From assembly GCF_018143015.1 (NCBI RefSeq), contig NC_054750.1:1965501-2029500 (forward strand): DNA of 64,000 nucleotides, written 5' to 3'. This DNA comes from Lytechinus variegatus. Its lineage: Eukaryota > Echinodermata > Echinoidea > Temnopleuroida > Toxopneustidae. The translations under genes and the position numbers were made by a program. Shown one piece after another: positions 19,478-55,751 of the stretch (within the stretch, counting starts at the first letter, position 1; each line of letters starts with the position of its first letter). The notes beneath the pieces are model-generated. The model saw nothing but the letters and a program-made list of their open reading frames with translations. It was not told the origin of the DNA and did no database searches.

Positions 19478-20370
19478 ATACCGCAAATAAAATTGCAATC
19501 GTTTACGGGTTATGTATCACATTTCCGAGCTTCTTCGTAGTGATAACTCTTACATATTGTTTACGGACGGTCAGGACCAAAAGGGCAGGTCGCTATTTAG
19601 AAAATGAAATTTACTTGGATCTTCAAGACATAGGAATAAATAAGGGAACAATGGCACCATCTACTTATCAGGATCTCAATGCACCACCAAACCTTCCAGA
19701 GCGACCTCTAACGACGTTTCGTCAAAGTACAACGCGATCGTCTGGCCAGCGGTTTCATAACCACGATGAGCGGATTCTGACAGAAAAGGACAGAGAGCAT
19801 GGCAGCCACGATTATACAGAAATGGGAACCACTAACAAGACTGTTTCCGCGGACAAGGACGAACATAGCTATGCTTACAACATTCATTTAGAAAACAGTG
19901 CTAAAGATAACGGACCACAAGACCACATAACGTCAATGACCAGCACAAGAAGGCAAGAAGACGCACGTGAGCGGATAAGTCATGGGCAGTCAAACGGTCA
20001 AAATAAAGCACAGGGGTATAAGGTCATGAACACTGTGTACAAAAAGATTGATGTAGGAAAAGATGAGGATATTGACGGATATCTTCTTCCAAGTAAAACT
20101 AACGAAACGGCGAAATCTCCGATTCGAGCTGAGCACGCAAAAGCAACCATGCCCGCAGATAACGACAAGATATCGGTATCATCACGAACAGATTACTCCG
20201 AAGATGAAAACGCACGGCTGCAAAAAGAAGTACAAAATACAGAACTTAGTGCACATGAATTTTTAGATGTGACCACATTTGGCCAAGGAATATCGAAGGA
20301 AAATAAAATAGACAGTGACGGCTATCTTCTGCCGGTCGCTTCTGGTGTCAGTCATGAAATGAACGACTAA
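19478..20370 (+). CDS. gene A last exon: transmembrane segment and tyrosine-rich tail
   Basis: The acceptor is TTTTTTTTCGCTATTACAG; the phase 1 entry matches the SRCR exons, and the stop TAA is at 20368-20370 (296 residues). A single hydrophobic span (IAIVYGLCITFPSFFVVITL) is followed by basic RTKRAGR, giving a type I receptor with a cytoplasmic C-terminus. The tail lacks catalytic domains but is rich in tyrosine motifs: YLDL, STYQDL followed by PPNLPE, DYTEM, YAYN, YKVMNTVY and GYLLP near 20017-20092, and a second GYLLP near the C-terminus. YxxM is the known SH2 target of PI3-kinase p85 and YxN that of Grb2, so a phosphotyrosine adaptor role is inferred. Genes B and C have the same order of motifs. 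Confidence 0.9.
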
Positions 20371-21162
20371 AAATTTTATTCCAATTTAATTTATGAAGTT
20401 TATAAATTTATAGAGGTCCTCTAACTCCTTTTCTTCGTGGTTAGGAAAATAGAAATAGGAAAGAGAGTAGGGAAATGTGAATTTCTTAAACATCAGTTTC
20501 TACTTAATGCTTTCAAAACAAAAGCTTCTTTTATGCCAGATATTAACTTATGAATGAGTAAAAACAATTTTAAATTGATAGAGTGAATTGACGTCCAGAT
20601 GAGAACACAAATGAATGGCATAAGATTCAACTTTATTGTTAAGTTGATGAAAATAAAAACGATGTATTTGTTATTATTTCAAAACATCCACATAGACTTC
20701 AAAAAGTCAGATATGATTATAAATCATGGAAATTTCGATTACATTATTATTTTGATTCCTAATGCTAAAAAAGGTTCGTTGATCAACAAGACTAAAAAAT
20801 GAATTATTCCTAAGGAATAAGGAGCATAATGGCAAGTTGTCATGCATAAGGGTAACACGAAGTCTTATCACCTTTTTTTTGCAAAAATAATAATTTCAAT
20901 GAATATCCATTAAATACAGTGTTTTTTATGGCGGGATCAAAAGCTGTTGAAAAAAAAATTATTCACAACAAAGTTGGACTTCTGTCATATTCATTGACAT
21001 TCGTAAAATAATGGATGCAAAAAAAAAATTATGCAAAGTAGTCAAAGTATTAACTGGTTGTTTTGGACCTAATTAAATTTTAATTACTTTGGGTGGTGTC
21101 CCTATGTTTACAATGCAACGTTCACTTTGATTACAAGACTCCTAACACCCTATTCCAACGTT
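20371..21162. other. gene A 3' UTR and flank
   Basis: AT-rich DNA without a recognisable gene. An AATAAA at 20652-20657 could serve as the polyadenylation signal of gene A. Simple A and T runs follow. Confidence 0.4.
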
Positions 21163-22080
21163 AAAGGCCAAGTCCACCCAAGAAAACTGTTGATTGGAAA
21201 TGATAGAAAAACTCAAACAAGCTTAACGCTGGAAAATTTCATCAAACGCGGATGTAAAATAAGAAAGCTATGACATTTTTAAGTTTCGCTTCTTTTTCAA
21301 AAAACAGTAATAAAAAAATATGCACAACTAAGTGATCTGCAAATGAGAGACTCGATGATGTTCCTCACTCACTATTCCTTTTGTTTTTTGTCGGTAGAGA
21401 GCGGTGTTGGCTCAGTCGGTAACGCGTCTGCCCGTCGAACCAAAGGTCGTGGGTTCGAGTCCACCCCGGGCGGATGACTGAAGCCAGTGCGTTGTGTGTA
21501 AACGTCTCTCCCATGTTTCATAGATGCAGGCTTTGTTACGATGGAAAATACTCCGTCCCTCGGATAGGAAGTTAAATGGAGGCCCCGTGTAGAGGAGAGT
21601 CACCACCTTTGCACGTTTAGAACCCACTGCACTATTCGTATAAGAGTAGGGGGTAACCCCGGTGCAGTGGTCCACCTGCATGCCCCCCCCCCCCCCCCAA
21701 TCAGTTATATCGGGAGGAGAGACCTGCGGGTCATAGTGACTCAGTTTGCTTTTCGCCTCCCAGGTACAGGTGACGCCAAACAAATAGTAATAATAATAAT
21801 TATTGTTTAAATTAACCAATATTCATTTTTTACAGATATGACAAGGACCAACTTTACTAAATCAGAAACTGTTAAAATAATGGTCGTTTAATATGTCAAG
21901 GGAGGAATACAATTTGTTTCACATAACAATGAGAAAATAAGAATTTTTCATAGAAATTTCTCAAAATAAAATACAAAAGAAATAGTGAGTGGGTTACGTC
22001 ATTAGTCTGCTCATTTGCATACCGACCAGAATGTGTTTTGCAAAATTAACTAAATTAATATTTTCATTATTACGCTTCAA
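21163..22080. mobile_element. AAGGCCAAGTCCACC-type MITE split by a SINE
   Basis: The left part (21163-21390) starts AAAGGCCAAGTCCACCC and contains TTTCATCAAACGCGGATGTA and AAGAAAGCTATGACATTTT. The right part (about 21801-22050) continues with GGAGGAATACAATTTGTTTC and CTCATTTGCATACCGACCAG. A nearby copy (22150-22560) runs through without the break, which marks the SINE as a later insertion. I recall this opening motif from sea urchin sequence but have not searched it. Confidence 0.65.
21391..21800 (+). mobile_element. tRNA-derived SINE
   Basis: The A box GTTGGCTCAGTCGGTAACGC and B box GGTTCGAGTCC are spaced as in a tRNA, followed by about 330 bp of body and a TAATAATAATAAT tail. It has no acceptor stem or CCA-proximal pairing. 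It is inserted into the MITE at 21163-22080. The antisense 135-codon frame over it is non-functional. Confidence 0.85.
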
Positions 22081-22149
22081 AAGCAGCTTGTTGGATCTTT
22101 TTCTTTTTATTCAAATCAACTTTTTATTGATGTGACCTTGTCATTTAAA

Positions 22150-22560
22150 TGTCAAGCACTCATCAGAAAAAAATGTTGATTTTAATCTATAAAGAAAAAT
22201 CAAACAAGTATAATGCTGAAACTTTCATCAAACTCGGATGTAAGATAAGAAAGTTGTGACATTTTAAAGTTTCACTTTTCACAAAAAAGGTTTATGCACA
22301 ACAGAGTGATACGCAAGTGAGAAAGTCGATAAAGTCCCTCACTATTTATTTTATTTTTTTATTGTTTGAATAAGACAGTATTCCAATTTTAACAGATTTT
22401 ACAGTTATGAACAACTTGACTGAGACAGAAATGTTAAAACAATGGTAATTCACATGTTCAGGGAGAAATAAACCTAGTTTCACATGACAATGAGAAGTAA
22501 AATAAATTTCACACAAGAAAAAAGTAAATCCCACGTTAAACATCTATAATTTTCAAACCA
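22150..22560. mobile_element. second copy of the 21163 MITE family, uninterrupted
   Basis: Shares TTTCATCAAACTCGGATGTA, AAGAAAGTTGTGACATTTT, TTATGCACAAC, CCCTCACTATTTATT, AACAATGGT and GTTTCACATGACAATGAGAA with the copy at 21163, in the same order and orientation. A further partial copy lies at about 23130-23290 (CATTTGCATACCGACCAG) and a more diverged one at about 60395-60520. Confidence 0.65.
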
Positions 22561-24059
22561 CAGGGAGTTTTTAATATATTTTTTTGCATTCTGAGCGTGT
22601 AGGTAATTTTATAAGCTACCCTTTCAGTGAATGTTACGGATGTATTTTATGTAATTCTTCAGTGAGCAACGCAAGAAGGCAAAATTGTCACTTTTTAAAA
22701 GTCACAAGCCAAATATCATGACTATCATGACGATTTCCATATTCTCATCACGAAAAATCGTCAGAAGGCTTCTAAAAACTGCTTTCTAAAAGACGATACA
22801 ACTTTTTTTATAAATTTCAAGGTTGAATAAACACAAGTAATAATTTGCTATAATTTTTTACACGTATATGTTGATAAAATGATCGAATATGATGACATTT
22901 ACTTTTGGGAAGAGTATCTTCAACAATTCCGAACTTTTTAACACTTTCACGGTTGAGCGAGCACACTTGAAAACTTAGGAATGGATACTCTTTATATCAC
23001 ATAATGCATTATTTTCCTCACGATTTCTAAGGATCTGTTGAATTTGCAATGAGTGGTGGAACCAGAATTTGAAAATGGGGAGGAGACTAAGAAATTGGGG
23101 AGGCGGACCAAGAAATTGGGGAGGGGAACCACTAACATTTTCCAATTTTAACATGTTTTTTTTTTAGTTATAGCAGATACTACCATAAACCCTAAGATGA
23201 AATACGAAAGAAATAATGAATGGATGATGTAATCAATCTCCCATTTGCATACCGACCAGTATATACATATAACTATTTTGAGCCATTTTTAATAGATGAC
23301 AAGGATACGACCGCGAACATTTATTGAAATTTAGCATCTCCATCTCACATGATTGACAGTATTTTCTTTGATTGAATTTAATGTCTTATATTTTCAACTT
23401 TCAAATTTTTACGTTTACAATCATCATACAGTTGACATATCATTTCTTAGTAACATACTATTAAATTTGAAGTACATATAAAGATGAACAATTATTTCAC
23501 AATAAACAATTAACAAAGCAAAATATAAATTGAAAGGGGGTGCCAGAGCCTGTACAACGTAGGTCAGTTGTGAGAGTATTTCAACACATATCTGATTAAT
23601 TGTAAAGTAATAACATATGGCGCTGGAACTATGATAAAATAATATTTTTGTCTACAGGATATACATACATAATGGTTTCTCTGACAATAAATCGAACGAG
23701 TTCTAATTACAAGAAATAGATTTTTTAATGTATTCTGTCTTTGGGAAGGGAACTGCATGATACTACTTACTTTTAAAACTTTCTTAGTGTTTTTTTTTTA
23801 TCTAGGTAGTAATTTACTTGACTTGGAGAAAAGTAAATTACACATAGTGTGCTTACAGGAGAAGAAAACTTAAACATTTACAAAAGTCAGAAATTTGTGT
23901 GTTTGGTACGTCGTGTGAGTGGAGTGCATCCGAGGGTTTGGGGGTGAAGACAAAGAGAATGAACTTGTGAGGATGTACATTTGTCCAGTTTGGTACCGAT
24001 GAGAGGCAAGCTACCTTTTTTTCCAGAGTCCAACATAGAAGGAAATCACAAGACTCCTA
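22561..24059. other. AT-rich intergenic DNA
   Basis: No gene is recognisable. A short tandem of AAGAAATTGGGGAGG occurs at 23070-23125, with a partial MITE copy next to it. The 64-codon antisense frame at 23564-23758 has no recognisable domain. Confidence 0.5.
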
Positions 24060-24640
24060 AGCCCAGCACCTATCCCCCACCCCCTCGTGAGTATTAATCA
24101 TGCCGGTCAATGTGAGGGTATGTGTGTGTGGACCAATGAAGGCGTGAGTGGGAGTGGCTATGTGTGGACACAGTTGCAAGTGTACTATGCTCTGTGTTAA
24201 GTGAGTGTGAGGGCGTGTAGTAAAGGTGTGAGGGTATCCGTGAGTGCATGATTATGTGAGGGAGTGAGAATGAGCGTGTGTGTGTGCATATGGCGCCGTA
24301 TAGTGAGTATGTAGAACATGTGTGTGTTTCTATGAGTGGCAATATAATAATAGTAAATGTTAGGGTGTATTTGTGGATGCGGGGGTAGGCCTATGTGTGA
24401 GTGAGGACTCTGGGAGTTAGGGTGTTTAAATAGTTCGGGATATTGGCCGAGTGGTGTTTCTGTGTGTACAACTATGTTGGTAAACATGAAGAGTGTGTGG
24501 ATGAATATATGTGTCTACACGTGAAGGACTGTGGGTCCTGTTGAGAATGTGCGCTTACAAGTGAAGGTTAGGGTGCAGTTGTTAGTACAAGATGCGTGTT
24601 TCTGTGAATTGGGACCTTTCGCAATCCTCACGGACGCTAG
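24060..24640. repeat. GTGTGAG-rich degenerate minisatellite
   Basis: Irregular repeats of GTGTGAGTG, GTGTGTG and GAGGGTGTG words, strongly purine/TG skewed on this strand. A similar patch is at 25840-26040. Antisense open frames here (24094-24487), rich in His, Thr and Pro, are repeat translations. Confidence 0.75.
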
Positions 24641-25264
24641 TATTAGGGTCCCCTAACACAAAAGTTAACGCTTAATCATACACTTGAGTTTTAAGATTGA
24701 TTGTGAATTAAAGTCAATAGAATCAAACGTAGAAAACTGCTCTACGATCAATGCTAAGCTTTGTATTACAGGGGGGTTACAGGCTCTACAAATCTGCTTT
24801 TCGTGTGCAAAATCCCTTTCCGCGACACCCGCACCATACATGCATGTATATTACGACTGATGGCTGGAGATATTCGAAATGCAGGACCTAAAATAGATTA
24901 TTACATGGATAAGAAAGTGGTTTTTCAAACAAATCGAGAACATATTGAGTGAGGAAAAACTTACTGAATGAAGGCTTAGATATTGATCATTAAAGTCCAT
25001 CGAATCGATATTACATTTAAAGTAGATTATTGGTGGATCACTGGCATTTGATTTTATGGATCAGATCAACCTCTCCAGCCGAACATTTCGCATGCGTTGA
25101 TATGTACACATCATATGCGATACCTTTGAACTCGTTTCCTTTTGTTTCTTTTGTTTCTTTGTTTCTTTTGTTTACTCCTTATACACAAACGATATGCCTC
25201 TCGCACACGATGTGAGGGGCATTATGTTTTACATTCCCCAGAAATGGGGATTAGATTCAAATTC

Positions 25265-25557
25265 CGGGGGGACCACTTCCATTGATGAGTGGATACCAGG
25301 CACGACCATGGGGTTTCGAAAAGTACCCTAAACAGGGAAGAAATTCTTTTCCAGATTATGAAAATGCATCTCTTAGGAAGTATTTGGCTTGTGAAACCCT
25401 ACAAGCATTGGATATATATCCCTTTTTCAGCATTTTAAACATCGTTTTGACACCCTTATAACGTTACATAGGCCTATATACGTAACGTACCTGCCCACTC
25501 TGTCCCCTTTTACGGGTGGTCGCTCCTGGTATCCACTAATCAATGGAAGTGGGCCCC
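25265..25557. mobile_element. MITE with ACCACTTCCATTGA ends
   Basis: Starts CCGGGGGGACCACTTCCATT and ends, read in reverse complement, CCGGGGGGCCCACTTCCATT, with terminal arms that continue as GAGTGGATACCA. It is the same family as 63202-63807 (shared termini, CCCTAAACA words, ACGTAACGT core). No clear target duplication is visible around this copy. It is non-coding. Confidence 0.75.
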
Positions 25558-26479
25558 CCGGGCGGCCTCTCGAGCTCTAGGAGGACTCAAATGTGGCTTT
25601 GGAAAGTCGTCCTCAATCGGATAAATCGCTGTTACCACAGTAGCAACCATAATTTTGCACACGAAATGCATATTGAATGTTTCCGTCGCAGATGCAAAAC
25701 GAAAAACAATCTCATGTCACACAATTTGCATTGCAGGACTGAGTTTTACGACCATGATGACGGGCCCAAAAAGTCCCTTCCAAAGTCAACTACCGTTGTA
25801 AATAAGCGTCCGCGTCCTCAAACGAAAGGTCGGGATTGTCATAATAACACGTCCGCGAGGATGTGTGGGTTAACGAGTGAGGGTGCCTCTGTGTGGATAA
25901 AGGAATGTGCGTACGCGTGAGAGTGGGCAAGTGCATGCTTGGGGGAGAGTGCATTGGAGAATGTAAGAACTGCGGGTTTGTGAGATAGCAAATGAGGGTG
26001 TATATTTGTGAATGAGGGACTTTTTGTGTTTAAATATGAAACAAGATTGTCGATAGCCCTGTGAAAATTTTTTGTTCCCCGACCACGGAACTTATGCCCG
26101 TAAGCAGGGAATGAAAAAAGTGCTCTTTAATTCTACATTAATTTGAATTGAAGCGGTTCACGCATTCTTGGCAATTATTTGGGCACTACTTTAAAAAGTT
26201 TAGTGTGCGTGCCCGCGTGGGTACGTGTGTGCAAGAAATAGAGAGGGGTGGAGGAGAGAGGAAACGAGAGCGGGGGTATTTTCAGGATTTTGGGCCTATA
26301 AAATTTGTATCAAATCAACCCATTAGACATTGCCCAAATTTTGATCATTGTACATCCCCACGGATTTTTCAATTTATCATGCACTCCCTGTTGTAATTTG
26401 GAGTGTATGCTTGACATCGCACTTTTTTGGTAAAGTCTATTCATGAAAGCTGTCCAAACTTCTCGCACATTTAAAAAAA

Positions 26480-27250
26480 AGGAGCTAGAAATGTCATTGA
26501 AGGTGATTAAAACCCCACCCTATGCCTTTTCAATGGCGACACACTTTTCCAACACACTTTTAAGATTAATCTTGCATGTCTTTACCCAAGATGACTGTTT
26601 GCTCCAAAATTCAAAAGAAATAACCCAAATAGCATGTTGTTACCATGGCAACACGCATTTGAAAACGGGTATTGCATTTTTTTTCTACCAATGTTGGTGC
26701 CAACTTTCATCAAGTTTTTGATCCACAATGAGTATTTGGGGGGGCCATAATATGCGGTTACCATGGCAACACAATTTCTAACAAAATTGAAAAATGTGTC
26801 TTGCACTCCTTAACTCCAGAGCTATTTGTGAGCCAAGATTCATGTAAATTGGTTGAAAACTGATGTTATTTGAACCGCAAGGTTTTTAGCTAATTTTGCC
26901 ACATATGTTGCCACCATGGAAACAAGATTTCCGACACAGGCAGAAAATATGTCTTGCACATTTTTACCTGAAGACCAATGTGTCAGCTAAATTTCATGGG
27001 AATTGGTTGAAAACTGATGGAGCTCAAACCGCGAGATTCTTACCTATTTTTCGCCATATAATATGTTATAACAATGGCGACATGATTTCTGATAAATTTA
27101 AAAAACTTGTCTCGCACATGTTTACCCCCAAACCAATGTGTGTTCCAAATATGAGGATTGGTTGACAGTTGAGGAAGTAGTTCGAAGCGGAAGATTTGCA
27201 ACGTACCGACCAACCGTACGCTGATTATTATTTACCCCCTTTTTTGGTGG
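26480..27250. repeat. degenerate tandem satellite, period about 145 bp
   Basis: About five units carry TACCATGGCAACACA(T/A)TT, (T/C)TTGCACA(T/C)(T/C)TTTAC, AATTGGTTGAAAACTGATG and AACCGC(A/G)AG(G/A)TTTT. The array ends at ACCGACCAACCGTACGCTG followed by a short TTTACCCCC...GGGGGTAT hairpin. It is non-coding and lies upstream of gene B. Confidence 0.7.
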
Positions 27251-27963
27251 GGGTATAATCACCAGGGTATTAAAATCCAATTAGAAAAAAACAAAAGATT
27301 TAACCTCCCAAATTGACGGCAAGATCGTTGATTAAAATTATATTGACGAAAATTTATGTATCGCCATCTGAAGACTGTATGGCGAGTGCGTGTTGTGCAA
27401 AAAATTCTGAAAAAATATAACACTATTTCGCGCACAATATTTATGTAGAGATTTAAACAGAAATCAAAGCTAAAATGGTGAAATATTTATATCAGATGGA
27501 CAGCGACGTGACAGAATCGGTAAGTACACACTTTACTGATATTTCTTATGAAACCTGCTTGAAAATTTGTGATTTCCTGTTTGTTGTTGAGAAGTTCGAA
27601 TTTTTCTTGCAATAAGTTCATCAAGCATTTCATGAAAAAAAATTCTCTTATTTTTCCCCTGATGAAATCGCAAATCTCATAATTATTTCTTCTCGTTTTT
27701 TTTTTAGTTTATCACTTGTTTTCTATGATGTTGGATTTAAATATTTGAAGTATAAAACACACAAAAAAAATCTTGAACTTTTGAACTATGGGTCAATCAA
27801 TATTCCCTGACTTCCCCCTGATTTGAAGCATTGTCTATGAAAATTCCCTGAATGGAATAAAGAGGATGTGCTAGTACACCTATTATATTCTACATTGATA
27901 AGAATAAAGGTATGTATGACAACAAATTTGTAAAGGGATATCAAAGACTTTTATACCGACAGA
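27251..27963. other. upstream flank of gene B remnants
   Basis: AT-rich. An ATG-initiated stretch of 15 codons at 27475-27519 (MVKYLYQMDSDVTES) runs into a perfect GTAAGT donor, but in phase 0 and without signal-peptide character, so it does not fit the phase 1 SRCR exons. Confidence 0.3.
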
Positions 27964-28281
27964 AATATAGGCGCGCCTCGTCAATGGCTCCAACAATGCT
28001 GAATGAAGATAGGTCATATATCATATACGGTAGATCATAGATGGTCGTTTGTAGTGGTGTCTTGTTTAGTCTCAATGATGCTAGGATAGTATGCAGAATG
28101 CTCGGTTACGACGGGGCCTTGGAGGCGGGAAGATTAGCAAGGTCTAGTCATGGATCTGGTAGTATTCTCTTTGTCGACTGTTCTGGATCAGAAGAAAGCC
28201 TCGTAGGCTGTTACGATGTATCTGATGCAACAACTTATTGTGAACACAAATGGGACGCAGGTGCCATCTGCTACTCAGGAG
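27964..28281 (+). pseudogene. gene B: decayed first SRCR exon
   Basis: Recognisable SRCR sequence: RLVNGSNNAE at 27971-28002, then a scrambled stretch with in-frame stops (TGA at 28001, TAG soon after), then an open part with DARIVCRMLGYDGALEA, GSGSILFVDCSGSEESLVGC, TYCEHKWDAGAICYSGG and a donor GTAAAA after 28281. The frame upstream of about 28040 does not read through. It is the counterpart of gene C's first exon (41489-41809), sharing CYSGG, EHKWDA/GHKWDA and an atypical middle. It is a host exon that gene B has lost or cannot use. Confidence 0.8.
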
Positions 28282-29047
28282 GTAAAACAGTGATCTTACA
28301 ATGGGCAAACCTTTGTACTTGTACGAGACATACAATGAAATTCGAAAAAAATTACAATGATTTATTTTTCCATAGCTATACCTACATACATATAATAATT
28401 CCCATTACCATGATCACGATCGAGAAATCATACACATGAGAAGGGCAATATCAATAAATTTATGTCAACATTGATTACATAATATTTTGTAAAGTGTGCG
28501 GTATGTCCATTTGCATTTCATGACTCCGGTGGTGTTCATGTTATTTTAGGCTCGCATAGCTTATCTTACAATGTAGCTAAAGGTCAATAAGTACAAAGCT
28601 ATTATAGTATAATTAATTTATAATTATTTTGACTAGATAAGTAAAAACGATATCTGACACCGACCAAAAGTAACTCATAAATATCTATATTCTGTTGATT
28701 TTTAGTGTAATGTTCCGGTATTTATTTGTACATTTCAATTTCGGTTTAGTTCGCCGCTTATAACTCGCTTTTTTCTGCAACTAGAATGACTAGGGGAAAT
28801 ATGTGTGTAGGCGATCTATAAATATACATATATGCATAAAGATGCACACATACATAAATTATCTCAAAGCTTAAAGGCTGACCTTTAAACAGACTATGGA
28901 TTTGTCTTTAAAAATTCAGGTTTCGATTCTAATGTATAATTACGCAAAATCTAATGGAGAATATCCTTAAGTGCACATCTATAAAAAAATCTTATAAAAC
29001 TACATCCAGAATCAAATAGTTAAATTGAATAAATAAATATATATATA
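28282..29047. other. non-coding, between two dead SRCR exons
   Basis: AT-rich sequence without a recognisable gene; ends in a short ATATATATA tract next to the truncated exon at 29048. Confidence 0.5.
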
Positions 29048-29141
29048 AACAGAAGACAACCTGGTAGACTGCTCATGCAGGGATTGGACGATACCCATGT
29101 ATACATTCAAAATTATGCAGGAGTCATGTGTTGCTGAGGAG
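29048..29141 (+). pseudogene. gene B: 3' stub of a 330-bp type SRCR exon
   Basis: Matches the last third of the 4025, 30098 and 42607 exons: ACAGAAGACAACCTGGTAGA, then CATGCAGGGATTGGACG, ending in GGAG and donor GTACGT after 29141. A 2-base loss breaks the frame (GACTG-CTCAT), and TGA stands where the exon should end CFSGG. The 5' two-thirds are missing. With the intact exon at 30098 this shows that gene B once had a tandem pair of this domain type. Confidence 0.8.
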
Positions 29142-29793: not shown

Positions 29794-29801
29794 ACCTACT
29801 A

Positions 29802-29914
29802 CAGTAGCGGACCGTGACCCGGAGGAGACAAATCATTGGGGGGACACTGCATTGTCTGTGAACAATGCTGTGCCCCCCCATGCTTTGTCTCCTCCGGGTC
29901 ACGGTCCGCCACTG
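29802..29914. mobile_element. 113-bp hAT-like hairpin MITE
   Basis: The ends CAGTAGCGGACCGTGACCC and, in reverse complement, CAGTGGCGGACCGTGACCC pair over more than 35 bp. The 8-bp flanks ACCTACTA (29794-29801) and CCCTACTA (29915-29922) match at 7 of 8 positions, fitting a hAT target duplication. CAGTRGCG termini are usual for hAT MITEs. It is non-coding and sits just upstream of the first intact SRCR exon of gene B. Confidence 0.85.
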
Positions 29915-30950: not shown

Positions 30951-31182
30951 TGGCTATGAACATGATGAATGGTATGTATTTGGAGTTGGAGTAAACCACG
31001 TGCCAGCGTACCTTTACTAAATAAAAAAAATAAAAACAATTAATATAAATTGTTTGGTGATGTCTAGATCAAAGGAATCGTATCCAAGTATTATGTTCTT
31101 TAAATTGTGAAATTTGATATTCTTAGAGACAATCAGGATTTTTTTTTGTTCTTTTCTTTGCTGTTTCGCACAAAAATACCAG

Positions 31183-31503
31183 ACCCATTCCAAGTTCGCC
31201 TTTCTGGTGGATTAAACGATGCTGAAGGGATAGTAGAGGTACTACATGACGGATCCTGGGGAACTATCTGCGATTATGAATGGGATCTACGAGACGCCAG
31301 GGTGGTTTGTAGGATGCTTGGGTTTGATGGAGCCTTGGAAGCCCTGAGATCTGCAAGGTTCGGCCAGGGTTCTGGTCCTATTCATCTCCTTTTTGTCGAG
31401 TGTGATGGAACAGAAGACAACCTAGCCGACTGTTCTCAAGTTGGGATTGGTCGTTTCTCATGTAGCCAGTCAAGGAATGCGGGAGCCATTTGTTTTTCTA
31501 GAG
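31183..31503 (+). CDS. gene B exon: SRCR domain next to membrane (321 bp)
   Basis: Single-exon SRCR domain. The acceptor is CACAAAAATACCAG, with a T-rich tract 25 to 50 bases upstream; the donor is GTGGGT and the phases are 1-1. It contains PFQVRLSGGLNDAEGIVEV, SWGTICDYEWDLRDARVVC, GQGSGPIHLLFVECDGTEDN, DCSQVGIGRFSCSQSRNAG and AICFSRG. Six cysteines are present. DCSQ...VG/PGVG resembles gene C domain 4 (44097). In gene B this domain directly precedes the transmembrane exon, where genes A and C have the 309-bp type. Confidence 0.92.
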
Positions 31504-32079: not shown

Positions 32080-32966
32080 TTTCTAATGGTAGTTCTGAAT
32101 TCGAGACTAACCTATCAAATAAAGTTCATGGCGATCATTTCCTGTGGCTCGTAATATGCATTCTTGTCCTGAGTTCCATGGGTTTAGCAGCCTTTCTATC
32201 TTGCCTATATCAAAGGCGGACGAAACTTAGAGCGAGGAGTTCTGATACTATTACATACATGGATTTGATGCATTCTAGAACCGTGGGCCATCAGGACTTG
32301 AACTCAACCTATCAAGATTTGAGTTCTCCGCCGAACTTACCACAACATTCGTCGGCCGATGTGTCAGTATTTTGTAAATCACAGATAGCCTCAACAGAAG
32401 GTGAAGATACGACCAACGTCAGCCATGAATACACGGATCTAAATACCATTTTGGAAAAACAAACAATTTCTAAAGATTCAGAGAGAAAAGTTTATATGGA
32501 GACAAGGAAAAAATCAGGAGAAGCGTATTATGAAAATCGAATAAGTGTAGAAAGAAAAACAGATAATAGTACACAGGATGCGGTTAAACAATATATGGAC
32601 ATGAGGCCAATCGCAGATACTCCAGACACAGGGTTTGACGATTATCTTCTAGCAACCCCTGCAAGCATGTCTAAGTCATGTGTGCACTTATCAGAAGGAA
32701 CACATATCTCTGATGTGGCAAGGAATGGCAACGGCACTGTTCAGTATAAAGGTAATAAGTACATGGACATGAATATTGTGTATCAAACGCCAGCATCTGG
32801 TTCAGACTTAGATGTTGATGGTTACCTTCTCCACGATATAACGTCAGCGAGCACTGATCATGATATTGATAAACATCTTCTTCGAAGCCTTACATCTGCC
32901 CAAAATAAAGTGATTTTGAATAACAACGCAGTATCAACAGGTTTTGCAACAGCAGAAGTGAAGTAG
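32080..32966 (+). CDS. gene B last exon: transmembrane segment and tyrosine-rich tail
   Basis: The acceptor is TTTTTTTTCCTACTTTTCAG, phase 1 entry, and the stop TAG is at 32964-32966 (294 residues). A short stalk SNGSSEFETNLSN precedes the membrane span FLWLVICILVLSSMGLAAFL and basic QRRTKLRAR. Tail motifs in order: TYMDL, STYQDL with PPNLPQ, EYTDL, KVYMET, AYYEN (YxN, Grb2-like), QYMDM, DDYLL, and KYMDMNIVY ... GYLL at 32760-32831. YMDM fits the p85 SH2 consensus. After the stop another frame stays open to 33037 and ends HDYMDL, so the C-terminus may have shifted frame recently. A dead duplicate of this exon lies at 53280-55110. Confidence 0.9.
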
Positions 32967-38960: not shown

Positions 38961-39638
38961 TAAAATTACAGTTTAATTTAGCGAGAGCACAGAACTTGCG
39001 GTTTTTCTCTATGAATTCTGTCATCAGGGGCCTGAGAGCAACTTTTGAAGAGAGGGGTGCTGGTTTGAGGAAAAATGACAAAAAAAAGGATTTCGTTTAA
39101 AAACGATTTTTTTTTTTTTTTTTTGGTCATACAAAAAATCGAAGGAAGAAACAGAAAATGGTTTTCGTTTCAACTTTATTTTCTTCCTTCCCAGAACTAA
39201 AGTTATTTTTTAACGCAACCACCAGTCAAGACATTACCAACATGTCAACAAAATAACGGGAGTAATTCCTGGGTCCAATCTTACAAAGAGTTAAGACTGA
39301 TCCGATCAACCTCAACTATGGGAAGCCAGCAACGCTTACATTTAAAATGCATGTTTATTCAATAAGTTTTCGAGATGATGAAGCATACTCATACATTCAT
39401 TGTCGTCTTGATAATTCAGTGTGTTCCTCTTTGTTTACAAAGAACATTGTGCAAATTTGTTTGTGGAAAGATTATGGCAACGTTGGCTTTCCATACTAGT
39501 TGAGGTTGATTGGGGAGGGGTGCTTCAACCCCAGTATCCCCGCTTCCTGGGGCCATGTCTCGGATCCGAGTCGGATCTGCTTCATATTGAGCCAGGTGCA
39601 GTAAATGGGCGAGTCAGGGGGCCTCAGCCCCCCCCCTC

Positions 39639-39640
<2 letters not shown>
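38961..39640. other. intergenic DNA
   Basis: No gene is recognisable. There is a T run at 39107-39124. A GC-richer patch at 39500-39625 (AGGTTGATTGGGGAGG, GGGGCCATGTCTCGGATCC) next to the TA repeat looks like part of an unidentified repeat. Confidence 0.4.
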
Positions 39641-39697
<57 letters not shown>

Positions 39698-39719
39698 TAT
39701 ATATATACATATATATATG
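39641..39719. repeat. (TA)n microsatellite
   Basis: About 70 bases of TA dinucleotides following a C-rich run, with one short CAG interruption. Confidence 0.95.
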
Positions 39720-40439
39720 TGATAAAATAAAATTATGATTAAAAAATAAGAATAAAAGATAAATAATTAACTAAAAGAAATGAGTGAAAATATTTTTTTT
39801 TTAAATTACAACTGATATTACAAAAAAAAAGCTCAATAAGGTGGGTGATAGTAAACACATATTACAGTGACTAAATTGTATGAGCAAATTATGCATTATT
39901 CCATGATAGGAAACATAATTGAAAGAGATTGATGACGAGAGAGACGAATTTGGAATAAGAAGATTGAAGTAGACGTGGTAGACAGAGAGCAAGAGAGGGG
40001 GAGAGAATGGTAAGAGTGACAGTGAAAAGAGCCCCAAAAGACCTTTAATGAACATCAACATTTATTAACATGATATATACTACGTAAATCACCTTCCTAT
40101 ATGAGAAAAAAATATTATATATATTGCAGTGGCCTTTCATGATCAGACTTTTGTACCTCGGTTGGCGATTATAATGAATACATTTGCCGGCATAAGGAAA
40201 TCCCGTAATGCATAATTGCATCAATGGTGCCTGTATTTTGAAACAAATCTTGACTAAATGATTTAAGAAAGTAAAGATCTACCTGGTACGGGTATCTTGC
40301 CAAGCCTCTTGAAAAACGTTGTCCCAACGCAGCTGGCTGTATCACATTTATGAAACGATCTTGGATATAATACACCATGAAGACAGTCTACATACAGAAG
40401 GAGTGGCAGTACCGAGAGAGCTTTAGTGTGTTTTAAGGA
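39720..40439. other. AT-rich intergenic DNA
   Basis: No gene is recognised. Short antisense frames (39801-40061, 40169-40378) show no family motif. Confidence 0.4.
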
Positions 40440-40685
40440 TGGCAATCTCGTGATGACCGTTTGTAAAGCTTGATGTCACTGGACATGTCTTATCCTTTTT
40501 ACACCTTATGTCCAATATAATTTGATCCCATCACTTTAAGAAGTACGTGGTGCTATTTCTCTGTTTATAGAGTGTATTGAGCTGACAGGCGTCTTATCTC
40601 ATTTGACAAGTATAGCACTGAAAAGGCGTTGAAGCGGTGTCAACTCACACCATAGTGGTATATACGGTGTCCTGCAAGGATGAGT
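40440..40685 (+). mobile_element. LINE relic (reverse transcriptase fragment)
   Basis: TCTTATCTCATTTGACAAGT and, at about 40650-40683, the codons for SGIYGVLQG recall the SYLT...YGVPQGS region before the catalytic motif of non-LTR reverse transcriptases. The related stretch at 58497-58600 keeps the same layout plus the following YADD. Upstream, ATGTC(C)AATATAATTTGATC matches 55560-55590. Degraded. Confidence 0.45.
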
Positions 40686-40689
40686 AACT

Positions 40690-41385
40690 TCCAAAGTTAT
40701 GTTGGCATTCAACAAATACATCCAACATGTTGACTGACCAAAAATAACCTTTGACCTTGACCCTGTGACATGAAACCCAGGCAGGATGTTTAGTAATACT
40801 TCGTCACCCTTATGTTCAAGTTTCATGAATTAGGTTTATATACTTTCTAAGAAATGACTACATTTAAAAAAAATAACTTTAGGTTAAAATTTCGATTCCC
40901 GCCAGAATGGAATTTCAGTTCAATGATTCTAAATCACGTTTGACCTTGGTCACGTGATCTGGAACTTAATTCAATTAAATTTAATTATTTTCTCTTTCAA
41001 TCCTTTTACATTTACAATGATAGTTTAATATACATATTTACAAGATATAACATTTAAGTCAGTTCTATGATACAATAATACTATGAAATCAAAAGAGGAG
41101 ACCAACTAAAAAGCAGAGCTTTGTAGGGTGAAGGCCCCCTTTCATAAGTATATTTTATGAATAAAAAATAACCAAAACAAAAAAAATAAAATACAAAATG
41201 AATTAATTAATCAATTAATAAAAAAGAAAGGATGTTTAGGAATTCTTGAGCACTTTTTGGCCAAGTTTCATTAACTAAGTCAATATACTTTCTAAGATAT
41301 AATGAGATTTCAAAAACTTAAACTTCGGTTAAGATTTCAATGTTGACGACGTCACCGCCGCCGTCGAAAAAGCGGCGCCTGCGTT
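40690..41385 (+). repeat. second copy of the GACCTT-type repeat, with insertion
   Basis: Carries CCTTTGACCTTGACC, CAGGCAGGATGTTTAGTAAT, TTTCATGAATTAGGT, ATACTTTCTAAG and the terminal GTCGAAAAAGCGGCGCC, as in 4900-5465. It is interrupted at about 40972-41231. It lies just upstream of gene C's first visible exon. Confidence 0.75.
40972..41231 (-). mobile_element. LINE 3' end inserted in the GACCTT repeat
   Basis: Read on the minus strand it ends AAAGGATTGAAAGAGAAAAT and then AATTAAATTTAATTGAATTA, a plausible LINE 3' UTR with an AATTG-type tail. The host repeat resumes on both sides (GATCTGGAACT / GGATGTTTAGGAATTC). Confidence 0.5.
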
Positions 41386-41488
41386 CAGTGACATCCACAG
41401 GTATCCGTAGGTACGTAACTATAAACTAAATGGTCCTCTAATAATCAACAGGGTGGGGACCGCATAAATGCACATCGACAAAATAAAG

Positions 41489-41809
41489 AAATAATATTCG
41501 CGAATGTTCAACGATTGTTTAATGGCTCCAACAGCGGCGAAGGAAGAGTGGATGTCTTGTACTGTGGATCGTGGATGACCGTTTGTGGGCAGTCGTGGGA
41601 TCTACGGGCTGCAAGGGTTGTATGTAGAATGCTCGGATTCGAAGGGGCCTTGGATGCGCCAAAAACTGCTAGGTATGGTCAAGGATCTGGTGATACGCTT
41701 TTTGCCCGTTGCTGGGGAACAGAGGAGAGCCTGGGAGACTGTTTTTACATTGGGATCCATTCTCTTTGTGGACATAAATGGGATGCATCCGCTGTGTGTT
41801 ATTCAGGAG
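41489..41809 (+). CDS. gene C exon: atypical first SRCR domain (321 bp)
   Basis: Open SRCR domain ending at donor GTAAGA, phase 1. It contains QRLFNGSNSGEGRVDVLY, CGSWMTVCGQSWDLRAARVVC, GQGSGDTLFARCWGTEES, DCFYIGIHSLCGHKWDAS and AVCYSGG. It has seven cysteines: the six of group A plus one in LYCGSW, where other domains have a tyrosine, aspartate or asparagine before GSW. MTVCGQ replaces GTVCDD. The best phase-matching acceptor (AAATAAAG before 41489) lacks a pyrimidine tract, so exon use is less certain than for the others. It is paralogous to the dead gene B exon at 27964. Confidence 0.75.
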
Positions 41810-41869
41810 GTAAGAAGTCGACGTTTATTTTTTATTCAATTTGTTGGAACGTAAGAGATGTCCCCATCC

Positions 41870-42395
41870 CGTATACATTTTAACGAAGTTGTCCCAACTA
41901 CAACGGAGACGGTAGATATGCGGTCGATTTTCAAAACACGAGATGCTACCATAGACACAGCGAAATTGCCGATATTGCACTTAGGTCTGAGCCTTAACTG
42001 TGATAAAACAGTGAGCATGTTATTTGAATCTCGCACAATGATAGGTAAATGTAATAGGTTGAACTTGAATAAAAAGTAAAGCAAGTACAATCAACAAAAT
42101 ATCTTGGTATATTATTAGATTCCAGTTTAAAGTTGAATCTGCATATCATGTAAATCACGTTCATCCGATATTTTAAAGATTGTACTGACCACCCTCTTAT
42201 TTTTCTAAAGATTTGATATTATGGTTATTTAGGAGAAAACCCATACAAGCATATTCTGCTTTTGTTATTCCCCTAAATGTACTTGTATATTTTCTTTGTA
42301 TTTTTGTTGTCTTTCTGTATTCATCTTTTAATGGATGTATTGTATTTGTACTTGCACCTGTAGTTTTTTACCAGTACTGGAAAATAAATAAATTA
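41870..42395 (+). mobile_element. LINE relic in gene C intron
   Basis: LSLNCDKTVSMLFESR at 41985-42030 and STKYLGILLDSSLKLNLHI at about 42088-42145 are the conserved post-YADD motifs of a non-LTR reverse transcriptase, in different frames. The 3' end is AT-rich and finishes in AAATAAATAAATTAAAAT. It is 5'-truncated and inactive. Confidence 0.7.
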
Positions 42396-42606
42396 AAATC
42401 GAATTGAAAAATGCAGTAATACCCAAGAAATAAAAACAATAACAAATTTTGTTTTGTGGTGCCCAAATCCAAGAGACCGTAGACATCTTTTGAATGCTGA
42501 TCTGATGTTCTTTTAAAGTGAAATAAGTTTAGTATCATCACATAAGATATGAAAAATTTGGCAGCTATTCTCCTTGTATAAGCAGTATTTTCGTATTTTC
42601 ACACAG

Positions 42607-42936
42607 CAAATCCATACCAATTACAAGTTCGCCTTACCGGTGGATCTGACGATGCTGAAGGCAGAGTAGAAGTACTGCATGACGGATCCTGGGGAACTGT
42701 ATGTGATGTGTGGTGGGATCTTAGAGACGCTAGGGTGGTTTGCATGATGCTTGGGTTTGATGGAGCCCTTGAGGCACCGGGATCTGCGAGGTTTGGCCAA
42801 GGTTCCGGTCGAGTTCTGCTGATGTACGTCAACTGTGAAGGAACCGAAAACAACCTAGCAGACTGTGCACATGCTGGGATTGCACATTACTCATGTATGC
42901 ATTCGAGGGATGCAGGAGCCGTATGTTACTCAGGAG
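42607..42936 (+). CDS. gene C exon: SRCR domain 2 (330 bp)
   Basis: Single-exon SRCR domain with acceptor TCGTATTTTCACACAG, donor GTAGAT and phases 1-1. It contains LQVRLTGGSDDAEGRVEV, SWGTVCDVWWDLRDARVVC, GQGSGRVLLMYVNCEGTENN, DCAHAGIAHYSCMHSRDAG and AVCYSGG. All six cysteines are present. It is the orthologue-like partner of gene A domain 1 and gene B 30098. The preceding 150 bases of intron are also similar among the three. Confidence 0.93.
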
Positions 42937-43117
42937 GTAGATCTTTACTTGCGATCTTTTTTTAACTATTGAAATTGTACTCGCAAAATAGCTAATCGCG
43001 AGCATTCCTGTAATGCCTTTATTGTTGAGATATAAATATATCAGCATATCACTGAATTTCACTATCTGTTTCTCTTATCTGTTCACCCAATTCTACATTT
43101 TATTCAAATTGCAATAG

Positions 43118-43438
43118 AACCATTCAGCATTCAACTAATCAATGGCGCCAACGACTTGGAGGGCAGGGTGAAGATTCTGTACAAAGGAAGAATGGGAAGT
43201 ATATGTGATGATGACTGGGATATTCGAGATGCAAGAGTGGTTTGTAATATGCTTGGATTTGACGGGGCATTAGCCGCACCAGGAGAAGCTATCTTTGGGG
43301 CCGGAAGTGGCGAAATCTTGTTTGACGACGTTAACTGCAAAGGGACGGAGGAAACCCTTGCTGACTGCTTCCATCGAGGACTTGGAGTCAACACCTGCAA
43401 CCATGGCAGTAATGCTGGTGTTGTTTGCTTTACAAGAG
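43118..43438 (+). CDS. gene C exon: SRCR domain 3 (321 bp)
   Basis: Single-exon SRCR domain; the acceptor is ATTCAAATTGCAATAG, the donor GTAATT, phases 1-1, and only 181 bp of intron lies before it. It contains FSIQLINGANDLEGRVKI, MGSICDDDWDIRDARVVC, GAGSGEILFDDVNCKGTEET, DCFHRGLGVNTCNHGSNAG and VVCFTRG. The usual GSWGT is GRMGS here, so the highly conserved tryptophan of the SRCR core is replaced by methionine. It pairs with gene A domain 2. Confidence 0.92.
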
Positions 43439-44096
43439 GTAATTATTTCCAATCAATCATAATTCCCTCGAAGCATCGATAAAGTTTAAAAATGGTTGCT
43501 TCGATGAGTTGTGTAGAATCCCTAATGTCAAGTAAGCTTGGTATTTTTTTTTATTTTGAGGTATTATTTTTGTATACATACACTACAGATTTGAAACAAA
43601 TATTCTTCAATATATTAAGATTCGAGTATGTAAGCGTGGGTACAGCTTACAATTCCTGAGCAGTTACCAACATGATACCCGAAAAGCTATACACTGTTAT
43701 AAAATTCATTTGTCGAAAAAATAGAGATAAAAGGGTCTTCTGTAGAGTCTCGAGACATATAAACTTGAACAGTCCTAAATAAAGAAATGCAAAATGATTG
43801 TACATTTTTTGTGTAAAATCTTTCTGTTTTGATAATGTAGATTATCTTTAATAGCCAAACCGGATGGAGAAATGGCCAAACAGGATGGTACGAGAATGAC
43901 CACAGAACCAAGGAATGATTTCAAGGTGTGACACCACTTGACAATGAAATAAAACAAAATGTCTATGTTTGTCATTATTGTCTATTAATGTCGTAGGCCT
44001 AAGATTGAAAGGTGAGAGTCAAGTCAGAGCTAAAATATGCATTATGCATTATGTATGCATTAAAATACCCAGTCACATGTATTGTTTTCACTTTAG
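43439..44096. other. gene C intron
   Basis: AT-rich, no coding recognised. A short tandem GCATTATGCATTATGTATGC lies at 44039-44060. Confidence 0.6.
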
Positions 44097-44429
44097 ATCA
44101 GTCATCTCCCTTCCAATTAAGGCTGACCGGTGGAGGAAGTAATGTTGAAGGCACAGTAAACGTTATGCATAATGGATCCTGGGGAACTGTATGCGACTTA
44201 AATTGGGATCTGCGTGACGCCCTGGTGGTTTGTAGGATGCTAGGGTTTGATGGAGCCTTGGGGGCACCAGGAGCTGCTAGGTTTGGTCAAGGATTTGGGA
44301 GAGTTCTTCTTAACTGGGTCGAATGTGATGGATCAGAAGACAATCTTGCGGACTGCTCGCAACCAGGAGTTGGGGATTATACTTACTGTGGTCATGATAA
44401 AGATGCAGGAGTCGTGTGTTTCATTGAGG
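44097..44429 (+). CDS. gene C exon: SRCR domain 4 (333 bp)
   Basis: Single-exon SRCR domain with acceptor TGTTTTCACTTTAG, donor GTATGT and phases 1-1. It contains FQLRLTGGGSNVEGTVNV, SWGTVCDLNWDLRDALVVC, GQGFGRVLLNWVECDGSEDN, DCSQPGVGDYTYCGHDKDAG and VVCF. Six cysteines are present. The strongly conserved GRVE is GTVN here, as in gene B's 31183 domain where it is GIVE; the two also share VECDG(S/T)EDN and DCSQ and are probably the same ancestral domain. Confidence 0.92.
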
Positions 44430-44693
44430 GTATGTTTTAATTTTTACCTTGAAAACTTTCGCCCCATAATCAAAAGAACCAGAGATTATTTGAAATACGG
44501 AAATGTCCTTGCTTTCTATTTATGGCTAAATGTACATCTTTACAAAGGATACAAATATTTGGCAAAATAAAGACCTAAAATACATTTTTAGTAGTAGTCT
44601 AAACTTGAAAACCAACAGAACTACCACTTACCAATTTCCAAAATGGTCTAATAACTGGATGCGTCAGATTACTATTTCGCTTCTTTTTTTTAG

Positions 44694-45002
44694 TTCGACT
44701 TGCAGATGGAGCAAGTGAAAATGAAGGAAGGGTAGAGATTCTCCATGAAGGGTCCTGGGGAACTGTATGTGATGATTTATGGGATCTGGATGATGCTACC
44801 GTTGTGTGCAGACACTTAGGATTTGAGGGAGCTCTGGCTGCGTTACCCCAGGCTCACTTTGGTGAGGGTTCTGGTGATATCTTTTTGGATGGTGTTCAGT
44901 GCAATGGATCAGAAGTCAACCTGAAAGACTGTAATCACAGCGGAATGGGTATACATGATTGTGCACATAAAGAGGATGCCAGCGTCATATGCAAAAATAC
45001 AG
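44694..45002 (+). CDS. gene C exon: membrane-proximal SRCR domain 5 (309 bp)
   Basis: Single-exon SRCR domain with acceptor GCTTCTTTTTTTTAG, donor GTAACT and phases 1-1. It contains RLADGASENEGRVEI, SWGTVCDDLWDLDDATVVC, GEGSGDIFLDGVQCNGSEVN, DCNHSGMGIHDCAHKEDAS and VICKNTG. All six cysteines are present. Same length and place as gene A domain 5. The next splice acceptor downstream is either 45587 (short stop-bearing exon) or 46089 (membrane exon). Confidence 0.93.
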
Positions 45003-45108
45003 GTAACTTTTAATGAAATTGTGTCAATGCTCTCCCCAGAACACACCCACACACACACTCGCACACGCACACAACCACTATCTATTTATTCGTCCCATGA
45101 TTGATCGT

Positions 45109-45430
45109 GGGGGCGTTGTGGTCTAGTGGTCATGACTATCGTCTTTTAATCTGAGGGAAGTGGGTTCGATTCCCAGCCATGGCGTATTTTCCTTCAGCAA
45201 AAAATTACCCACTTTGTGCTGCACTCAACCCAGGTGAAGTGAATAGGTACCCGGTAGGAAGAAATCCCTCGAATGATCGAGCGCCCGATCAAGGTAGCCG
45301 TGCTAAAGCCGGGGTAATAACATAATCATGTTAAGCAGGGTCCGCTGGGAGAACAGTTGGTGGAACTGAAGTGGCTACTCTCGGTAAAATATAACGTTAT
45401 TATTAGTAGTAGTATCATTGTTGTTATTAT
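45109..45430 (+). mobile_element. tRNA-derived SINE, family copy 1
   Basis: The head GGGGCGTTGTGGTCTAGTGG (A box) and GGGTTCGATTCCCAGCC (B box) flank a CTTTTAA loop, so it is tRNA-Lys-like. The body has TTCCTTCAGCAA, TGTGCTGCACTCAACCCAGG and GAATAGGTACCCGG, and the tail is TTATTATTAGTAGTAG. The same body occurs at 51690-51945 and 60129-60390. It lies in gene C's last intron. Confidence 0.85.
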
Positions 45431-45586
45431 GATTACAACTATTATGAAGTTTGTATTTACTATCAAAATTCACTTCATGTGATATCATGTTGCAGGCCAC
45501 AGGGATTTGTCTCTCTTTTGGAATTTCCTTACTTGTCGATCTCTTGATAAATGATCATTCCTTATATTTTACCTTAAATTTTACAG

Positions 45587-45624
45587 ATACGTCATCACGA
45601 TATCTTTTTCCAAGGGAAGTCTAG
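45587..45624 (+). CDS. gene C: candidate short terminal exon for a secreted form
   Basis: A good acceptor (TATATTTTACCTTAAATTTTACAG) in the same phase as all the others opens DTSSRYLFPREV and a TAG stop. AATAAA signals follow at 45894 and 45898. Joined to the 45002 donor it would end the protein after five SRCR domains without a membrane span. Gene A's membrane exon also begins DT, so this could instead be the first bases of a lost ancestral membrane exon. No transcript evidence is available. Confidence 0.3.
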
Positions 45625-46088
45625 ATTCTGAAAATTTAACTCGTATAATGGAGTTACATCGTAAAAGCATTTAATAGGAGATAAATGAACTGGATAATAA
45701 TTCGGTTCAGAAACCTCTTCAATGGAATCGATTGTGTACCTTCTTTTTAATCCGTGAGCAAAATGTAAAAGAAATCGTTTAGAATTTCAATTTGTTGCTT
45801 TTTTATTGACCTCAGTAATAATATTATTATTACACATCATTTATTATGCTCCATCTATCTAGTAAACTATTCCGAGGAGCAGAGGTTTAGAAAAATAAAT
45901 AAAAGTAGTCAGCACACAATGAAGAACACTTGGTTTAGATATCTTCACTGGGGGAAATAATGAACCTTTAAGTACAAAAATGTATATATAATGCATTAGA
46001 GTGTGGGTGTGTGTGCGTGAGTGTAGAAATAATGTAAGGCATTAGCTACATCTAATTTGCATTTGAATTTTTTCATATATCTTTATAG

Positions 46089-46972
46089 GCTTTACGACAT
46101 ACTCAGACGCTAGTACATCTGATGAAATGCATTCAACAAACACATTATACTTAAAGTCTTCTACGCTTATTGGAAACGAAACTACACATACTACTGGAAA
46201 TGAGAGCACCGATTACAGCACACCTCGCCGCCCGTTACACATTAATGATGCTCAAAACTTGGAAACAAATTCAGGGGCAACTTTCGTACTTAGCCTTCAC
46301 ATGATAATAGTCATCGGAATCTGCACGCTAATCATTAGTATATTTGTAATCTTATCAATCGTGTACTGTTTTTATAGATTTTATAAGAGAATGGCTGCTA
46401 AGAATTCGGAAGATATTTATATGGACGTCACAAATCTATCATCACTTAACGCCCTATCTACCAGTTCGACTTATCAAGACATACACACCCCACCTGAATT
46501 ACCGGATGGGCAAAAGACTGATGTGATTCGGCACGAGTATGAATCACAAATAACCATGGATCTCGCTGGTAATGCCGACAACTTAAAAACTTTTCAAAAT
46601 ATCGGCGAGGGAGATATTCATGAATACACGGACATGAAAACCATTCGTCAAAAACACCCACGAAACGAGTACAGAGACACCGATGGCTATTGCAGAACAA
46701 ACACAGAAATGCCTTCGAGAGATGTAAAATCAATTATTGAGGGTTGTAGTAAAAGTGAAACGCTGAAAATGTCCGATGACAATGTTGGAATCGAACATTT
46801 ACCCGGAGGAAAATATGAAAACATGGCACATGGTTATATGGAAATGAAAACGGTTTACCAAAAACCGAAATCCAGAGAGGATCTCGATCTCAATGGTTAC
46901 CTTCTCCCAGACGCAAGAAATTCACCGAATCATGGCAATGCTGTAGAATATGAAACAACTCTTCTTGATTAA
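46089..46972 (+). CDS. gene C last exon: stalk, transmembrane segment, tyrosine-rich tail
   Basis: The acceptor is TTTTTTCATATATCTTTATAG, phase 1 entry, and the stop TAA is at 46970-46972 (293 residues). The first 65 or so residues are a Ser/Thr-rich stalk with N-glycosylation sequons NETT and NEST. The membrane span is LHMIIVIGICTLIISIFVIL, followed by basic FYRFYKR. Tail motifs: IYMDV, STYQDI with PPELPD, EYESQI, EYTDM, EYRDTDGY, KYENM, GYMEMKTVY and GYLLP (46835-46909), EYETTLLD at the end. YMEM, YENM and YTDM fit the p85 SH2 consensus. Compared with gene A the stalk is much longer, while the tail keeps the motif order. Confidence 0.9.
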
Positions 46973-55735: not shown

Positions 55736-55751
55736 TCTTATAAGCGAATCG

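Follow-up and report, generated by a model that had tools for sequence, protein, structure and literature searches.

A window of 64,000 nucleotides of DNA from the sea urchin Lytechinus variegatus (C11:1965501-2029500, from a genome of 870 Mb in 33 contigs that we also searched) contains three genes whose terminal exons encode a hydrophobic segment followed by a tail. In each of these three exons, the tail carries, in frame, a module of the general form YxxMxx(V/I)Y-x12-GYLL. Exons for SRCR domains (SRCR is short for scavenger receptor cysteine-rich) sit 5' of each motif-bearing terminal exon on the same (+) strand, and the terminal exons belong to paralogous, tandemly arrayed SRCR-domain receptors. 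The final exons and modules of the three genes, in window coordinates, are:

18966-19274, + strand: last SRCR exon of gene 1 (Pfam PF00530, E = 2.8e-33; candidate splice sites)
19478-20370, + strand: terminal exon of gene 1, with membrane helix, tail and stop (open frame; acceptor tattacag just 5' of 19478; AlphaFold2 model)
20017-20091, + strand: module of gene 1, YKVMNTVY-x12-GYLLP (six-frame scan)
31104-31503, + strand: last SRCR exon of gene 2, its start unplaced and the open-frame start given (PF00530, E = 1.2e-27; donor candidate)
32080-32966, + strand: terminal exon of gene 2, with transmembrane segment and tail (open frame; acceptor)
32760-32834, + strand: module of gene 2, YMDMNIVYQTP...DGYLLH (six-frame scan)
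44694-45002, + strand: last SRCR exon of gene 3 (PF00530, E = 4.1e-33; candidate splice sites)
46089-46972, + strand: terminal exon of gene 3, with stalk, transmembrane segment and tail (open frame; acceptor)
46835-46909, + strand: module of gene 3, YMEMKTVYQKP...NGYLLP (six-frame scan)

We scanned all six frames of the window for GYLL 8-20 residues after YxxMxxVY and found only three full matches, all on the + strand. A preliminary description of this DNA had reported the same three copies, and its positions differ by no more than a few bases from ours (20017-20088, 32760-32831, and 46835-46906, each in an open terminal exon). The distance to GYLL, which it gave as 14-15 residues, is more regular than that: in every one of the three tails, VY is separated from GYLL by exactly 12 residues.

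The same description considered the rest of the tails hard to align. The terminal exons of genes 2 and 3 are each just 28% identical to that of gene 1, yet all three tails have additional blocks that can be aligned and follow one common order, so we reject the idea that they are otherwise unalignable. These blocks are a membrane-proximal Y(M/L)D(L/V), STYQD(L/I)xxPPxLP, H(D/E)YT(D/E)(M/L), and finally the YxxM...GYLL module. The first two blocks lie at:

19609-19704, + strand: gene 1, IYLDL and TYQDLNAPPNLPER, a Src-type SH2 plus SH3-ligand-like block (tail alignment)
32253-32348, + strand: gene 2, TYMDL and TYQDLSSPPNLPQH (motif mapping)
46415-46510, + strand: gene 3, IYMDV and TYQDIHTPPELPDG (motif mapping)

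In the AlphaFold2 model of the gene 1 terminal exon, which was built from an alignment of three sequences, an N-terminal helix is followed by pLDDT (predicted local distance difference test) values below 50 for most of the tail (239 of 297 residues), as would be expected if the tail is disordered as predicted. The hydrophobic segments of genes 2 and 3 were recognised by eye, and membrane topology is a prediction only. Searches of Pfam and the PDB with the tails returned nothing significant (the best PDB match, E = 0.19, and the best Pfam match, E = 0.022, were taken as chance). What is probably left of a fourth tail, STYQDLNPTPKLPERS, lies at 54957-55166 (+) of the window; it has STYQDL and PKLPER and is without the module.

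The window lies within a tandem array on the + strand of C11, at 1.71-2.19 Mb. Protein searches of the genome with two of the tails gave 11 stretches (E <= 0.001) and 25 stretches (E <= 10; 12 of these at <= 0.001), and all matches but one fall within the array. (The exception, at C18:9190457-9190555, is a weak match to the module region, E = 0.019 and 55% over 34 residues, in an open frame of 330 residues.) We read 11 distinct tails: L001 to L011, with the overlapping L004 and L005 counted once as a single gene, and gene 2 of the window (W2). The window contributes three of the 11, and ten further matched places lie outside all tail counts.

By similarity, there are three types of tails: A (gene 1), B (gene 2), and C (gene 3). 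The order in the window is A, B, C (at 1985160, 1998230, and 2011966 along C11). Types A and C are also the outer members, with an untyped middle, at 1809577/1824722/1841798, 1869928/1883101/1902065, and 2159083/2177231/2188845. As far as seen, C types at 1778861 and 1922488 and a B type at 1726911 stand outside such trios. This arrangement hints at block duplication of A-B-C gene trios, which we offer as a suggestion only.

All 11 tails have the juxtamembrane tyrosine, PPxLP, and H(D/E)YT(D/E)(M/L), while YQ(D/E)(L/I) and PxLPxR are each found in 9 and (D/N)GYLLP in 8. The full module, with YxxMxx(V/I)Y and 12 residues from VY to GYLL, is present in every tail except L004. A broader form of the second site, (D/N/S)(G/D/S)Y(L/C)xP, is present in 9 of the 11; the exceptions are W2 and L004, the open frame of which ends upstream of the site. 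On inspection by eye, none of the 10 modules lacks a tyrosine with proline at +3; types A and C have it in GYLLP, types B and C in VYQ(K/T)P. L004 (type A) is split after YMVMNTV, between the V of YxxMxxV and the residue after it, by ~0.9 kb of extra sequence (about 638-1503), which is either an insertion or a new intron. Directly past the L011 tail, a different frame is open and encodes one more YMDM (HDYMDMEYARQDPK; L011 2183-2362).

For shuffle, repeat, and spacing tests we used 7 of the 11 tails, omitting L002 and L004 (both truncated) and L007 and L010 (near-copies of L008). The full pattern arose in 0 of 5,000 shuffles of each tail, and a rough estimate from composition puts its expected frequency at ~0.003 per 10 million residues. 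The module thus does not occur at chance frequency, and we reject a chance origin.

The preliminary description noted an exact triplet in otherwise diverged tails. The triplet exists, and to call it that undersells it: the module belongs to a repeated unit, present more than once within most of the tails tested, that prefers a spacing of 21 residues between its tyrosines and stands beside a conserved YQD(L/I) and a proline-rich block. The internal repeat score exceeded that of all 150 shuffles in 6 of the 7 tails. In the best self-alignment of type C tails (L006, and likewise L008 and L009), YTDMKTI...DTDGY lies opposite YMEMKTV...DLNGY. The matching stretches are YMVMNTV...DGYLLP and YLNMTTF...DGYLLP for type A (L003; L001 has phenylalanine for the first tyrosine), and YMDMRPI...DSYL and YMDMNIV...DGYL for type B (L011). 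When each Y(M/T/L/K/V)x(M/L) was paired with a later tyrosine 12-30 residues on, the spacing was exactly 21 in 16 of 25 pairs. Further copies of the unit in the window are:

19807-19878, + strand: gene 1, degenerate unit HDYTEM...YAY, tyrosine spacing 21 (motif mapping)
20254-20334, + strand: gene 1, second copy HEFLDV...DGYLLP, first tyrosine replaced by phenylalanine (tyrosine in L003; repeat test)
32424-32495, + strand: gene 2, unit-like stretch HEYTDL...VY, tyrosine spacing 21 (motif mapping)
32592-32651, + strand: gene 2, shortened unit YMDMRP...DDYLL, spacing 17 (tail positions 113 and 130, from which the coordinates were derived)
46619-46696, + strand: gene 3, first unit HEYTDMKTI...DTDGYCR, tyrosine spacing 21 (repeat test)

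In gene 2 the repeat is also visible in the DNA, where 32574-32604 and 32742-32772 are 71% identical; this is the copy with the 17-residue spacing.

We compared the proportions of nonsynonymous (pN) and synonymous (pS) differences in motif blocks and in the rest of the tail, pooling one pair of tails per type (L001/L003, W2/L011, and L006/L008; 3 of the 6 within-type pairs). The blocks were taken from the alignment of the window's tails, though sequences from the other loci had already been seen. Pooled pN and pS were 0.043 and 0.216 in the core module, 0.067 and 0.281 in all tyrosine blocks, and 0.172 and 0.275 in the rest of the tail, with pS similar throughout. By one-sided Fisher tests on rounded counts, with sites treated as independent, pN was lower in the core module (p = 4e-5) and in the blocks (2.6-fold, p = 7e-7), and pS did not differ (p = 0.66 and 1.0). 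The pooled signal derives largely from W2/L011, whose pN/pS was 0.05 in blocks and 0.62 in the rest; the values were 0.26 and 0.47 for L006/L008 and 0.25 and 0.57 for L006/L009. Between types, nonsynonymous divergence (dN) was 0.15-0.21 in blocks and 1.0-1.4 in the rest (five pairs), and synonymous divergence (dS) was mostly saturated. These data support a conserved multi-tyrosine module under purifying selection. As for the preliminary description's expectation of such selection, it is borne out by the pooled comparison and not by every pair, as 2 of the 6 within-type pairs (L009/L007 and L001/L002) lack the lower ratio in the motifs.

We propose that the tails, which are predicted to be disordered, act as tyrosine-based signalling scaffolds and form a platform for PI3-kinase and CRK-type adaptors on SRCR receptors; we give this reading a probability of about 0.5. 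The paired tyrosine motifs probably dock signalling proteins such as PI3-kinase, much like the tails of the cattle SRCR receptor WC1. A role for YxxM as the SH2 target of p85, which the preliminary description named, fits the YMDM, YMEM, and YMVM seen in these tails. Because YQD(L/I) matches the WC1 motif and the adjacent PPxLPxR resembles a class II SH3 ligand, a Src-family kinase would probably dock there. Clustering of the SRCR ectodomain by ligand would bring the kinase to YQD(L/I) and PPxLPxR, and it would then phosphorylate the units of the tail. Phosphorylated YxxM could recruit PI3-kinase via p85, and a CRK/CRKL-type adaptor could bind the YxxP tyrosines (GYLLP and VYQKP), perhaps within a single CRKL:p85 complex. 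PIP3 signalling and remodelling of actin would follow and drive phagocytosis or co-stimulation, as in a WC1-like immune or phagocytic co-receptor. We infer all of these binding steps.

There are precedents for parts of this scheme in the passages covered of the papers cited here and below. The SH2 domain of CRKL binds YxxP, its SH3 domain binds p85, and the SH2 domain of p85 binds YxxM; since CRKL binds p85 via SH3, a single CRKL:p85 complex has been hypothesised on scaffolds with both YxxP and YxxM (PMC7982423). The receptors DCBLD1 and DCBLD2 bind CRKL via conserved YxxP (PMC6029619). Co-stimulation by WC1 depends on phosphorylation of the tyrosine in YEEL, and the motif Y-(Q/E)-(D/C/E)-(I/L) is common to the relatives of WC1 (PMC2906472). 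Fyn, Blk, and Lyn are able to phosphorylate WC1 (PMC8356672).

Several observations weigh against a PI3-kinase and CRK platform. GYLL is without the +3 proline in both type-B tails that we read, including gene 2 of the window (VYQ(T/K)P does have a proline there). L009 has lost YQDL, L002 has YQGL in its place, and two of the three window genes no longer have PxLPxR. The repeat score of window gene 2 was reached by 1 of 150 shuffles, and its best self-match is of the GYLL stretch with a downstream DIDKHLL rather than of unit with unit. The counts of tyrosine pairs are not independent because the tails are related. On selection, L001/L003 alone shows just 0.49 in blocks and 0.59 in the rest, and two pairs are reversed: L009/L007 (0.54 in blocks and 0.37 in the rest, with three synonymous changes in the blocks) and L001/L002 (0.55 and 0.31, with one synonymous change in the blocks; L002 has stops further on). 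More generally, pN/pS rests on few changes here, and paralogs may exchange sequence.

A more specific proposal, which we make tentatively and which has the odds against it, is that YxxM and the GYLxP tyrosine 21 residues on form a bivalent unit that arose in an invertebrate SRCR array, was duplicated within tails, and spread by duplication of A-B-C blocks. Such a unit might be read by a single CRKL:p85-type complex or by a tandem-SH2 protein, as an ITAM-like code of its own (ITAM is short for immunoreceptor tyrosine-based activation motif).

Alternatively, one tandem-SH2 protein, such as an SHP-2-like phosphatase or a protein of the Syk/ZAP-70 or PLC-gamma type, might read the paired tyrosines, with the 21-residue spacing as the key feature of an ITAM-like tail or of one with inhibitory motifs (ITIMs). 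A fixed distance, both within and between tails, is what a two-headed reader would be expected to impose. However, YxxM at the first site is the classical target of p85, and the second site tends to be YxxP. ITAMs have 6-8 residues between their YxxL boxes. The consensus YxxL/I-x6-8-YxxL/I does not describe this module, whose tyrosines are 21 apart and whose second site is YLLP, YLLH, or YLLS, nor do the tails follow the ITIM consensus. We consider this explanation doubtful.

Another explanation is that the tyrosines serve chiefly in endocytic sorting (as YxxPhi signals recognised by AP-2), for the internalisation of a scavenger receptor. Scavenger receptors are often endocytic, and YMDL, YQDL, YTDM, and YMEM all fit the YxxPhi consensus. 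In contrast, GYLLP, GYCRP, and VYQKP, with proline at +3, do not fit, and the long regular spacing would be left unexplained, so sorting as the main function seems unlikely. Shared ancestry alone, with duplicates that happen not to have diverged at these places and a module without special function, would be in keeping with the confinement of all matches but one to a single paralog array, with possible gene conversion, and with the two within-type pairs that lack a lower motif ratio, but it is improbable given the contrast in dN between types and the 2.6-fold difference in pooled pN at equal pS.

If these tails are scaffolds for PI3-kinase and CRK-type adaptors, then the receptors may work like a WC1-type SRCR signalling receptor while standing outside the WC1/CD163 group. 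Group B SRCR domains have eight cysteines, and those in the window mostly have six; we reject membership in WC1/CD163 on this definition and on the single-exon tail. The bovine WC1/CD163c-alpha genes resemble those studied here in forming a multigene SRCR array with several tail types (PMC2681482, PMC8356672), and their tail motif Y-(Q/E)-(D/C/E)-(I/L) (PMC2906472) is matched by YQ(D/E)(L/I) in 9 of our 11 tails. This resemblance spans four residues and may be convergent. Unlike the tails in the window, that of WC1 is spread over four to six exons (PMC2681482), and a repeated YxxM-GYLxP unit is not described in the passages on WC1 that we covered (PMC2681482, PMC8356672, PMC2906472).

We also compared these tails with other YxxM and YxxP scaffolds. 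CBL and GAB2 are not receptors. Like the tails described here, they combine YxxM sites for p85 with YxxP sites for CRKL (PMC7982423), and DCBLD1 and DCBLD2 have repeated YxxP, with CUB, LCCL, and FV/FVIII ectodomains instead of SRCR (PMC6029619). No fixed distance from YxxM to YxxP is reported for any of these proteins in the passages covered (PMC7982423, PMC6029619).

The expanded SRCR genes of the sea urchin S. purpuratus are also in tandem clusters, and in one such array, which that work describes, each SRCR domain has a single exon in all but one gene (PMC10855680). The window likewise has one exon per SRCR domain, in keeping with a sea urchin. That survey, in the part covered, sorts invertebrate families by domains and gene structure and not by tails; its main text has no matches to "tyrosine" or "ITAM" and does not describe tyrosine motifs in the tails. 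In the open-licence PubMed Central papers that we searched, none combines "SRCR" and "YxxM", and no paper among the matches listed, as judged by titles and the openings of abstracts, concerns tyrosine modules in sea urchin SRCR tails. The bivalent YxxM and GYLxP unit is not described in the literature that we searched there. An internally repeated two-tyrosine unit implies that these SRCR receptors probably signal and predicts which adaptors they use. If this is true, invertebrates would have a counterpart of the cattle WC1 co-receptor array, and the step from recognition by SRCR domains to PI3-kinase and CRK would be open to direct test.

The structure of the upstream exons agrees with the assignment to SRCR receptors. 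All 13 SRCR-type frames that we submitted to Pfam were above the gathering score for PF00530. A donor candidate in identical phase lies 3' of the SRCR domain in 12 of the 13, and acceptor candidates in the same phase could be placed for 6. In all three genes the 5' boundary of the terminal exon is a 3' splice site, and the membrane segment and tail are held within that one exon. There are six cysteines in 10 of the 13 SRCR frames and seven in the frame at 41425-41880. For the frame at 44009-44437, which was clipped by our script, six were counted by eye. The frame at 28041-28436 is a frame-disrupted exon, and the eight cysteines printed for it include sequence past the SRCR domain. The first SRCR-like exon before gene 2 (27900-28290) begins in one frame and continues in another, and is probably decayed.

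Two repetitive features also lie in the window. Between the gene 1 SRCR exons at 6736 and 18881 there is an element (9126-14223) resembling a LINE (long interspersed nuclear element). Its first open reading frame has no Pfam match, and the next encodes an endonuclease domain and a reverse transcriptase domain (RVT_1, E = 8.9e-39). At 55695-56095 and 58035-58417 there are two inverted copies of a stretch built from repeated gaaattcgcgac-like units; judged by eye, their translations, from opposite strands, are near-identical.

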